Source: a virus
Direction: 5' to 3' (one strand)
DNA length: 64,000 nt
IMG/VR virus record: IMGVR_UViG_3300032286_000710
Coordinates: 102,605-166,604 of that record
The notes below the pieces were generated by a model that worked only from the letters and a program-made list of their open reading frames with translations, was not told where the DNA came from and ran no database searches. Shown one piece after another: positions 5,024 to 50,853 of this stretch (its first letter is position 1; every line of letters starts with the position of its first letter). The translations under genes were made by a program, and so were the position numbers.

Positions 5024-5961
5024 GTTACGGTTACTGTAACGGGTGGACTACCAGAACCACCCGGTTCTGTACCGAATATTACCAAATCATTTAAGTCTGC
5101 ATCTACGTATTGACCGCCATCGTCTTGTACGTAGAAAGTTAATTTTCTTAATGAAGTGGCATCATTTCCAGATCTAAATGATAAACCAACTGTATTAGTT
5201 TGAAAATCAGTGCCATTTGTGGATGTGCCTCTAGCATTACTAGATCCAATAGCAGCATAATTATTGTCAGCTAAAATGCCAGAGTGGAATGTGATAGTAA
5301 ACTTACCAACTCCATCTTTATTTATACCAGAAACACCAAACGAATCTCTAACGACGGGAAGGCTATTAACTCCACTAGCATCAAAATTGATCCAAGCTTT
5401 TGCAACTCCACGGGCAGAACTCATACGAGATTTATCTTTTAAGAAAGTAAGTGATGTTCCACTACCAACATTAATAATTTCACCGGTAGAACTTACATAA
5501 CTAAACTGTAAGCCTCTATAACCATTATTGTTTGTTACATCAGCAGAGCCGCTGGAATTAATCCAGTTATTTCTCATACCTAAACTTCCTGTCATAGCTC
5601 TGCTACCATTAGATGTTAGGTATTGAGTATGTGGATCACCAGCACTTAAATCAGCTAAATTATTGTGAGATAAACCTTGTGGGCCGGGATAAGCAACATA
5701 CTGCATCCCACCACCATTAATGAAGTTAATACCAGAACCAACATATAGTGTACCACCATTATTTCCATCTTTTTGAAGTCTTACGTCATTTACAAATGGT
5801 GTTTCAGAATTGAAATTACCACTAGCCACAATTTGGTTTATAGAATCAACAGTGTCCACAATGCTGTTTCTAACATCGGCGGCTGAAATCATACCAGCAT
5901 TGTTATCTGGTATAACGCTACCAACATATGAAATTAAACCACTTTTTGATCTAACAGTCAT
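5020..5961 (-). CDS. Tail fibre-like structural protein
   Basis: 313 residues, preceded by a strong GGAGG site. The N-terminus (MTVRSKSGLISYVGSVIPDN) resembles that of the 1068-residue fibre (MILSKSQLVNNINSEISDQ...), and both share an 'I-S/A-A-x-D-I/V-R' plus 'I(V/I)DSI' pattern early on. This points to a common virion-docking domain. The rest is Ser/Gly-rich beta sequence. It is likely a fibre or a fibre-connecting module. Confidence 0.6.
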   Translation of the reverse strand: MTVRSKSGLISYVGSVIPDNNAGMISAADVRNSIVDTVDSINQIVASGNFNSETPFVNDVRLQKDGNNGGTLYVGSGINFINGGGMQYVAYPGPQGLSHNNLADLSAGDPHTQYLTSNGSRAMTGSLGMRNNWINSSGSADVTNNNGYRGLQFSYVSSTGEIINVGSGTSLTFLKDKSRMSSARGVAKAWINFDASGVNSLPVVRDSFGVSGINKDGVGKFTITFHSGILADNNYAAIGSSNARGTSTNGTDFQTNTVGLSFRSGNDATSLRKLTFYVQDDGGQYVDADLNDLVIFGTEPGGSGSPPVTVTVT

Positions 5962-45883: not shown

Positions 45884-45939
45884 GATATCAAAGAAGCCAT
45901 AAGTAAAAGACAGTCGAGTATGGCAGACACCCCCATTTT

Positions 45940-46013
45940 GGGTCATTAGCTCAGTTGGTTAGAGCATCGGACTTTTAATCCGTTGGTCGTAGGTTCGAAT
46001 CCTACATGACTCA
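45940..46013 (+). tRNA. tRNA-Lys (TTT)
   Basis: Acceptor GGGTCAT/ATGACTC, D-arm with GCTC...GAGC, anticodon loop CTTTTAA, T-arm TAGG-TTCGAAT-CCTA. Strong similarity to bacterial tRNA-Lys. No encoded CCA. Confidence 0.92.
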
Positions 46014-46042
46014 TTGACTTTTTGGTGTGTATACAGTATAAT
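46014..46042 (+). promoter_or_regulatory. Promoter of the small gene / tRNA cluster
   Basis: TTGACT, 17 bases, TATAAT, beginning immediately after tRNA-Lys. GTGTGTAT lies between the boxes. Confidence 0.75.
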
Positions 46043-46074
46043 AGATAAAACCATTCCTTTAACCCCTAAATACT

Positions 46075-46218
46075 ATGTACAACGAAAATGTTATGAAGTG
46101 GTGCGGCCCTTATTATACTGAAGAGTACGATGATCTTATCGTATATGATGAGGAGATTATCGTAGTAGATGACAGTGGGGAATGGTACAATATTTATGAT
46201 TCGGAGGCTGGCGATTGA
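46075..46218 (+). CDS. Small acidic protein inside the tRNA cluster (47 residues)
   Basis: Reads MYNENVMKWCGPYYTEEYDD and ends YDSEAGD. It lies between tRNA-Lys and tRNA-Thr. The upstream sequence lacks a strong ribosome site (CCTAAATACT), so expression is uncertain. Function unknown. Confidence 0.5.
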   Translation: MYNENVMKWCGPYYTEEYDDLIVYDEEIIVVDDSGEWYNIYDSEAGD

Positions 46219-46228
46219 GTTGCGGGTA

Positions 46229-46299
46229 GCCTGCATAGTATAGTGGTATTACAGTTGATTTGTAATCATCGGACGGGGGTTCGATTCCCTCTGTGGGCT
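46229..46299 (+). tRNA. tRNA-Thr (TGT)
   Basis: Acceptor GCCTGCA/TGTGGGC (with G-T pairs), anticodon loop TTTGTAA, T-arm GGGGG-TTCGATT-CCCTC. The anticodon stem has one T-T mismatch. No encoded CCA. Confidence 0.8.
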
Positions 46300-46304
46300 T
46301 TTGA

Positions 46305-46570
46305 TCGGGAATGGTGTAACGGTAGCACAAATGACTTTAACTAACCGGAGTGCATTATAGGGAAACCTTAAATTGTATAACCTCTCAAATTCGGGGAACG
46401 CTTAACTGCCAATCCCGAGCCAAGCCTATATGGAAGGTGTAACGACTTTACGGGAGGCGTCTAAAGCAATGCTATGACGAAGAGAAAGTCTAGACTACAA
46501 ACCGCAAGGGTAACGAAAGTTATAGTAGTATGTGGATCATTTTGTCTAGGTTCAAATCCTAGTTCCCGAA
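46305..46570 (+). tRNA. tRNA-Gln (TTG) interrupted by a group I intron
   Basis: Exons 46,305-46,337 and 46,533-46,570 join to a 71-nt tRNA. Acceptor TCGGGAA/TTCCCGA, D-arm GTGT/GCAC, anticodon stem AATGA/TCATT, loop CTTTGGA, T-arm CTAGG-TTCAAAT-CCTAG. T1-A72 and the loop agree with glutamine tRNAs. The intron lies between positions 34 and 35 of the anticodon. The HNH gene on the other strand ends inside the 3' exon (12 bases shared). Confidence 0.85.
46338..46532 (+). ncRNA. Group I intron (195 nt, cyanobacterial tRNA-Leu-like type)
   Basis: The 5' exon end ACTT pairs with GAGT in the intron (P1, with the U-G pair at the splice site), and the intron ends in G. Core segments resemble tRNA-Leu introns of cyanobacteria and plastids: GGGAAACC early, AATCCCGAGCCAAGC (Q), a GTGTAACGACTTTACGGGAG R-type segment, and GACGAAGAGAAAGTC (S). 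GACTTT and AAAGTC can form P7. No internal ORF. Confidence 0.85.
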
Positions 46571-47236
46571 CTTATTATAAGATTTAATCCATTTTCTTAC
46601 GGCGTTGTCACTAACGCCATACATTTTACCAATTGTAGTCATTGGATGATTTTTAATTAAATAATCTAATTCTTCTTTTGTTGGCCTGTCTACCTTCCTC
46701 AACCAAGGTTTTGGGCCTTGCTTACCTTTTTTAATTTTTGGTGGTTTTTTGAATCTTTTACCAGCATAAGTGTCTGTTTGACTATGACAATTTGGACATA
46801 AGAAACATAAATTTTCTAGTCTATTATCATTGGGAATACCATTTTTATGTTCAAGTTGTAATGATATCTTTTTGCCGTTCCACGTATTTAATAGTCCACA
46901 CTCTGCGCATTTATACTCAATTAAATTATTACGAATGATTCTTTGTTTAATACAGTTGCGATTCATAGTTCCATTTTCACAAAAATATTCGTGATTAGAT
47001 TTTTTAGGAGTAAATCGTTTTCCCTTATTTGAACCTTTACCAAGAGATATATGAGACATGTCTATATTTTCTTGCTTGGCCCTTCTTTTAACAGTGTTAT
47101 GGTTTCCACCCTTATTATTCATTCCAAAGTATCTTAAAATATCTGCAATTGTATTAGACTTAGAAACGAGATCTTTAAACTCATCTCTTGATATTGACCA
47201 TATAACGCTTCTATTTTTTCTTTTTTGTTCTTGCAT
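46559..47236 (-). CDS. HNH homing-type endonuclease next to the intron tRNA
   Basis: 225 residues from the ATG at 47,236 (MQEQKRKNRSVIW). A longer frame from 47,320 would be antisense to tRNA-Asn and is rejected. N-terminal HTH-like region (NTIADILRYFGMN), HNH core CAECG...LQLEHKNGIPNDNRLENLCFLCPNCH, and a C-terminal HTH (MTTIGKMYGVSDNAVRKWI). This order is typical of free-standing phage homing endonucleases. Its stop lies in the tRNA-Gln 3' exon; a late-type GTGTATAATAAT motif is upstream. Confidence 0.85.
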   Translation of the reverse strand: MQEQKRKNRSVIWSISRDEFKDLVSKSNTIADILRYFGMNNKGGNHNTVKRRAKQENIDMSHISLGKGSNKGKRFTPKKSNHEYFCENGTMNRNCIKQRIIRNNLIEYKCAECGLLNTWNGKKISLQLEHKNGIPNDNRLENLCFLCPNCHSQTDTYAGKRFKKPPKIKKGKQGPKPWLRKVDRPTKEELDYLIKNHPMTTIGKMYGVSDNAVRKWIKSYNKFGN

Positions 47237-47287
47237 TTTTATTCCAAGTATGGTAAGATAACTGTGAATAGTAGATGTGTGATACCA

Positions 47288-47302
47288 TATTATTATACAC
47301 AA
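47288..47302 (-). promoter_or_regulatory. Late-type promoter motif of the HNH gene
   Basis: Minus-strand TTGTGTATAATAATA, 52 bases before the chosen start, identical in core to the late motif at 15.79 kb. Confidence 0.5.
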
Positions 47303-47307
47303 AACAT

Positions 47308-47379
47308 ACGTAGGTAGCATAATGGTAGTGCCACAAACTGTTAATTTGTCATGTGTAGGTTCGACTCCTACCCTACGTG
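47308..47379 (+). tRNA. tRNA-Asn (GTT)
   Basis: Acceptor ACGTAGG/CCTACGT perfect, anticodon stem ACAAA/TTTGT with loop CTGTTAA, T-arm GTAGG-TTCGACT-CCTAC, discriminator G as expected for Asn. No CCA. Confidence 0.92.
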
Positions 47380-47383
47380 CTAT

Positions 47384-47455
47384 GGCCCCATCTTCTAACG
47401 GTTAGGAAATCGGATTTTCGCTCCGAGAATCAGGGTTCGATTCCCTGTGGGGTCA
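47384..47455 (+). tRNA. tRNA-Glu (TTC)
   Basis: Acceptor GGCCCCA/TGGGGTC, anticodon stem TCGGA/TCCGA with loop TTTTCGC, T-arm CAGGG-TTCGATT-CCCTG. Begins 4 bases after tRNA-Asn. No CCA. Confidence 0.92.
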
Positions 47456-47459
47456 TTTT

Positions 47460-47533
47460 GGGAATGTAGATCAATTGGTTAGATCGCTAGCCTGTCACGC
47501 TAGAGGTTGCGGGTTCAAGTCCCGTCATTCTCG
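47460..47533 (+). tRNA. tRNA-Asp (GTC)
   Basis: Acceptor GGGAATG/CATTCTC, anticodon stem CTAGC/GCTAG with loop CTGTCAC, T-arm GCGGG-TTCAAGT-CCCGT. Discriminator G. No CCA. Confidence 0.92.
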
Positions 47534-47542
47534 TTATCTTTT

Positions 47543-50747: not shown

Positions 50748-50852
50748 GGAGAATGTAGCGTAATGGTAGCGTGTGGGAAGTTCCGAACTGCGACAATAGT
50801 GCAGAGTAGGCAAACAAATGCCCATGAAGTGGTTCGATTCCACTCTTCTCCC
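50748..50852 (+). ncRNA. tRNA-like RNA with a 43-nt insertion in the anticodon arm
   Basis: Acceptor-type ends GGAGAAT and CTTCTCC, a D-arm like that of the tRNA-Asn here (GCGT-AATGGTA-GCGT), and a canonical T-arm AGTGG-TTCGATT-CCACT. The expected anticodon stem, GTGGG/CCCAT, is separated by 43 bases (50,778-50,820) that can form CTGC/GCAG and GGCA/TGCC hairpins. No anticodon can be assigned. Could be an interrupted, decayed or repurposed tRNA. Confidence 0.5.
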
Positions 50853-50853
50853 C

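Follow-up and report, generated by a model that had tools for sequence, protein, structure and literature searches.

A predicted group I intron in the anticodon of a phage tRNA-Gln gene and an adjoining HNH endonuclease gene

What interrupts a phage tRNA gene in the middle of its anticodon, and how might the interruption have arrived there? The question is raised by a stretch of viral DNA of 64,000 nucleotides (the window), which forms the end of an IMG/VR virus record of 166.6 kb. Among the genes of this record are a virion structural gene and one for the large terminase subunit. The window has a tRNA cluster at 45939–47534 (Lys, Thr, Asn, Glu and Asp), with further tRNA genes beyond it. A split tRNA-Gln gene in this region was called neither by default ARAGORN nor by Rfam at its cut-off. 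With introns allowed, ARAGORN reported a tRNA with a 195-nt insert at 46305–46571 and, with the junction displaced, labelled it 'Stop(UUA)' (tRNA-Stop(tta)). The gene lies on the plus strand. Its 5' exon (46305–46337) comprises the acceptor, the D arm, the anticodon 5' stem and the loop bases C32, U33 and U34. The insert follows at 46338–46532, with the omega-G at 46532. The 3' exon (46533–46570) comprises U35, G36, G37 and A38, the anticodon 3' stem, the T arm, the acceptor and A73; CCA is not encoded.

The junction search considered pyrimidine-ended 5' exons and G-ended introns. CTT|TGGA was the sole scored placement with 195 nt, a U preceding the intron and a G ending it, and the resulting anticodon was UUG (Gln). 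When IMG/VR was scanned with a pattern of the joined exons, four contigs (L088–L091) proved to have an intact tRNA-Gln between tRNA-Thr and tRNA-Asn. L088, L089 and L091 were compared over the full length, and all 71 nt, the 5' exon included, were identical to the joined exons of the window. In L090, the exon and flank sequence was the same as in L088. The intact gene of L088 scored 67.8 bits with the Rfam tRNA model and was called Gln(ttg) by ARAGORN. Because the intronless contigs carry the exact joined exons, the splice junction is fixed independently. An earlier reading of the sequence without database searches (the sequence-only reading) had joined the two halves to a tRNA-Gln(UUG) and placed the insertion between anticodon positions 34 and 35. 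The intact genes of the three contigs bore out the former, and the splice-placement search and the empty-site comparison agreed on the latter.

In the upstream flank, the empty-site contigs and the window shared 87% identity; at the amino-acid level, three L088 genes matched those of the window at 39–57% identity. The gap between tRNA-Gln and tRNA-Asn was 4 nt in L088–L091, which had neither the intron nor the HNH gene described below. These contigs resemble one phage species; therefore, they may amount to one instance of a matching empty site. L122 and L125 have the same Thr-Gln-Asn order and an uninterrupted tRNA-Gln, with a different site sequence.

The same intron was found in the tRNA-Gln of six phages: the window, L011, L047, L052, L115 and L117. 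Among these loci, the exons were 89–100% identical and the introns 78–90%. The six introns were monophyletic with respect to other phage tRNA introns (bipartition support of 99).

The sequence-only reading was to be given up if no group I model matched the insert. RF00028 matched at 46327–46508 over the full model length with 47.4 bits, which is strong by E-value and 2.6 bits under the cut-off of 50 bits. Given an E-value of 5.9e-11 in a search of 601 bases and 4.0e-12 in the genome-wide search, this is not a chance match. The homologous introns scored 44.9–65.5 bits, and those of L047, L052, L115 and L117 were above the cut-off (50.4–65.5 bits).

A structural alignment of 26 phage tRNA introns was made. 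The P1–P9 structure was drawn manually, with P2 taken from L011 and the rest from the window sequence, and the pairs were then counted. Over 52 named pairs and 26 introns, 95.2% of the cells were paired, and two-sided changes occurred in 31 of the 52 pairs. The covariation score was 0.511 versus 0.057–0.103 with the partner slid by one to three columns; as the structure was drawn partly from the aligned sequences, this control is tilted in its favour as regards pairing, a bias that does not account for the two-sided changes.

P3, P7, P8 and P9b were paired in all 26 aligned sequences, and two-sided changes were seen in each of P3, P7 and P8. P3 (46381–46386/46452–46457) encloses P4, P5, P6, P6a and the 5' strand of P7; every cell was paired, with two-sided changes at five of the six pairs among the relatives. 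P4 (46391–46396/46413–46418) lies inside P3, and one of its pairs, read by eye, was G-C in the window, U-A in L115 and A-U in L117. P7, the guanosine-binding helix (46442 and 46444–46448/46486–46491), has one bulged base and is pseudoknotted with P3, with P8 between its strands. Two P7 pairs were compensated (A-U versus G-C and U-A versus A-U): the Gln introns have A-U and U-A, and the majority of the other introns have G-C and A-U. P9 (46494–46529) contains two inner hairpins with the loops GCAA and GAAA, and all four P9b pairs showed two-sided changes among the relatives. Single-sequence thermodynamic folding of the whole pre-tRNA gave a z of -1.26.

The splice sites followed the group I rules: a U precedes the intron, P1 has a U.G pair, the intron ends with G and P10 is formed with the 3' exon. 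P1 (ACUU/GAGU) has only 4 bp, with U.G at the splice site. The internal guide (46345–46351) consists of CCG, pairing with UGG of the 3' exon in P10, and then GAGU, pairing with ACUU of the 5' exon in P1 (U34.G). P10 was scored by a fixed rule, which replaced a maximising search biased toward finding P10. The first P10 pair was present in 25 of 28 introns, compared with 13.1 expected by shuffling (0 of 5000 shuffles reached 25), and the three misses are explained by the crude motif rule. The 3' exon base in this test differs by isotype. The window Gln intron has U.G, G-C and G-C, and the first pair is A-U in Leu, C-G in Arg (34|35) and G-C in Thr introns. A P10 of 3 bp was present in all six Gln introns.

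With the RF00028 match and the covarying core, the proposed group I identity held, and we consider it very probable that the insert is a group I intron in a phage tRNA-Gln(UUG) gene. The features that had been read from the letters (195 nt, P1 ACUU/GAGU, a terminal G, P/Q/R/S-type core segments and the place) were as described, and the likeness to tRNA-Leu(UAA)-type introns was upheld. The cyanobacterial tRNA-Leu(UAA) intron sits between positions 34 and 35. The window intron shares with this IC3 intron of cyanobacteria and plastids the 34/35 site, the U.G pair at the splice site, the terminal G, the small size without an ORF and the core segments. It differs in the host gene, a tailed-phage tRNA-Gln(UUG), in a guide that matches the Gln exons and in the linked free-standing HNH gene. 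By the resemblance to the tRNA-Leu intron and the shared alignment, the subgroup appears IC3-like.

Self-splicing, meaning both catalysis and splicing in vivo, is something we infer from the sequence. The pre-tRNA would fold, and exogenous guanosine bound at P7 would attack after U34, where P1 has its U.G pair. U34, now free, would in turn attack after G46532 while P10 (UGG/CCG) holds the 3' exon. The exons would be joined as CUU|UGGA to a normal tRNA-Gln, and the 195-nt intron would be released.

An HNH endonuclease gene of 225 aa with a C-terminal helix-turn-helix adjoins the 3' exon on the minus strand (46559–47236; PHROG 10822 with an E-value of 2.8e-47, weak Pfam matches to HNH_3 and HTH_23). 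Its stop-codon end overlaps the 3' end of tRNA-Gln by 12 nt in antisense. The sequence-only reading had overlooked this gene. Homologues with 72–81% identity were present in L011, L047, L115 and L117 at the same place and in the same orientation. Hence, the gene was next to the 3' exon at five of the six intron-bearing tRNA-Gln loci, and all five HNH homologues found were directly behind an intron-bearing tRNA-Gln. No copy was found elsewhere in viral contigs by peptide-pattern scans, which reach close relatives only. In L052, the intron was present with an unrelated ORF where the others have the HNH gene, which means that the HNH gene is not obligatory. The L052 ORF had no family or PDB-sequence match and an AlphaFold pLDDT of 32.5.

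Beyond the Gln loci, an HNH-motif ORF was found within 250 nt of 11 of 58 distinct phage tRNA introns versus 10 of 175 control tRNAs (Fisher p 0.004, with a crude control). Ten of the 11 were found by script and one, at the cut-off locus of L047, by hand. This points to a modest general association between phage tRNA introns and HNH ORFs. In L045 and L076, HNH-like reading frames either immediately preceded the intron core or lay within it, which suggests HNH genes within phage tRNA introns.

A free-standing endonuclease gene lies beside the intron at five of six loci, and both are missing at the empty sites of L088–L091; the HNH gene appears to belong to a mobile element with the intron. The intron and the abutting gene may spread as a DNA cassette. 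Co-infecting relatives would have their intronless tRNA-Gln genes cleaved by the HNH enzyme, the phage's own tRNA-Gln copy would be protected by its intron, and repair would transfer intron and HNH gene together. This corresponds to collaborative homing, as described for the free-standing endonuclease F-CphI and the psbA intron of cyanophage S-PM2 (PMC6083498). We regard collaborative homing of this pair, including the target of the endonuclease and the transfer, as somewhat probable.

The strongest competitor, less probable than not but deserving weight, holds that the tRNA cluster contains an intergenic homing endonuclease gene, the HNH gene, which is independent of the intron; its adjacency would then reflect shared ancestry or coincidence, and the intron would now be immobile. 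Phages often carry free-standing HNH genes, including more distant homologues (the window protein had matches in 90 records), and HNH-motif ORFs also occur near the control tRNAs. The HNH gene is missing from the intron-bearing locus of L052, and the five linked cases represent one phage clade. On the other hand, all five close homologues found occupy the same position in the same orientation, intron and HNH gene are both missing from the empty-site relatives, and an HNH core with a helix-turn-helix is frequent in homing enzymes.

Alternatively, the intron could be kept for a benefit to the phage, e.g. slower tRNA maturation or an anticodon loop hidden from host anticodon nucleases. The insertion inside the anticodon would suit this explanation, as would the role of phage tRNAs in countering tRNA-cleaving defences (PMC13096335). 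Since close relatives do without the intron, we consider it improbable. A tRNA-Gln gene that is dead because its intron has lost splicing would be compatible with the score of the window copy below the Rfam cut-off and with its short P1; it is very improbable in view of intact exons, core pairs kept by compensation (one in P4 and two in P7) and the P10 common to all six Gln introns. An ochre-suppressor tRNA with anticodon UUA, as in the ARAGORN output, was rejected with near certainty, as it places an A before the intron, contrary to the group I rules, and the three intronless relatives have the exact Gln(UUG) junction. Because ARAGORN labelled the window tRNA-Gln an ochre suppressor, ignored or misplaced introns can lead to wrong tRNA counts and 'suppressor tRNA' calls for phages.

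How common are such introns in phages? A scan with one pattern combining group I and T-arm elements matched 84 contigs, nearly all with a split tRNA. The isotypes among the matches typed included Arg(UCU), Leu(UAA), Asn, Thr and Gln. The intron had been called unusual at the outset. This stands for the Gln isotype but not for phage tRNA introns generally, with 84 contigs from a single scan. Two matches (L005 and L087), which look like tRNA arrays with no intron, were excluded. A second kind of tRNA-Gln intron in L057 (a 543-kb contig) was rejected because the splice site allows either Gln or Lys, and a 'Gln' with a 233-nt insert in L041 was not counted because an RF00028 match was absent there. 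Among 84,980 genomes of bacteria and archaea, tRNA-Gln introns of this type were sought with two patterns. One gave 0 matches, and a looser one gave two chance matches in coding sequence, with neither a tRNA nor a group I match; both patterns probe this 3' boundary only.

According to a 2014 review, all phage introns known by then were in protein genes, despite many phage tRNA genes (PMC3984707). The first report of phage tRNA introns came in 2019 from Lak megaphages, where they were called enigmatic and assigned to no type (PMC6784885). The window intron has in common with the Lak introns that a phage tRNA is interrupted, and it differs in being assigned to group I. The introns of T4 td, Twort and Bastille are likewise group I ribozymes in phages, but they interrupt protein genes. 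The present data contradict that received distribution, in which phage group I introns are confined to protein genes, and they add Gln, as far as checked, to the isotypes interrupted by group I introns. Introns in tRNA genes look like a little-noticed and apparently common habit of phages. A search of the open-access literature, from which most subscription journals are absent, yielded no description in phages of a group I intron in tRNA-Gln or of a cassette of tRNA intron and HNH gene. As far as could be checked, the Gln isotype, the group I assignment and the intron-nuclease cassette are new.

F-CphI and psbA also have a free-standing endonuclease gene beside an intron-bearing gene. The cleavage specificity of F-CphI was shown experimentally, whereas that of the window enzyme is predicted; it is of the HNH type with a helix-turn-helix, and its target would be a tRNA gene. 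I-Ssp6803I, an intron-encoded PD-(D/E)XK homing endonuclease of the cyanobacterial tRNA-fMet intron, is also linked to an anticodon-loop group I intron. It differs from the window enzyme, which is a free-standing HNH protein, in being intron-encoded and of the PD-(D/E)XK type.

A wider reading has, in our view, about even chances. Small group I introns would have a major habitat, for the most part undescribed, in phage tRNA genes of many isotypes. In one clade of phages, the free-standing HNH gene and the tRNA-Gln intron would be a mobile pair, and the intron, by breaking up the anticodon, would make the tRNA gene immune to the linked endonuclease. Alleles with and without the intron, identical in their exons, occur naturally and provide material for questions of splicing, homing and tRNA-targeting defence.

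Several further observations were made. In the 41-kb contig L041 (G009), no fewer than three tRNAs within a span of ~6 kb, those for Thr, Leu and Met, were interrupted by group I introns. In Lak-A1 (MK250016; L094), there was a single RF00028 match (209334–209571), and ARAGORN saw no tRNA there; this lone match does not account for the published Lak tRNA introns. Plasmid pCTX-M3 (NC_004464; L114) carried an intron-bearing tRNA-Leu(UAA) at 1433–1731 near aac(3)-IId. Its intron core was matched in 1262 PLSDB plasmids and was unannotated in the records listed. On the plus strand of the window (50748–50853), a tRNA-Gly(UCC)-like gene had a strongly conserved extra segment past the anticodon region (AAGTTCCGAANTGCGACA...GGCAAACAAATGCC), which is too small for a group I intron. 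The same element was seen in nine other phage contigs (L052 and L122–L129). Finally, a protein encoded at 5456–6388 of L088 had a prepilin-like N-terminus and, by eye, resembled the DUF1559 family, which is frequent in planctomycetes; this is a possible hint to the host of these phages.
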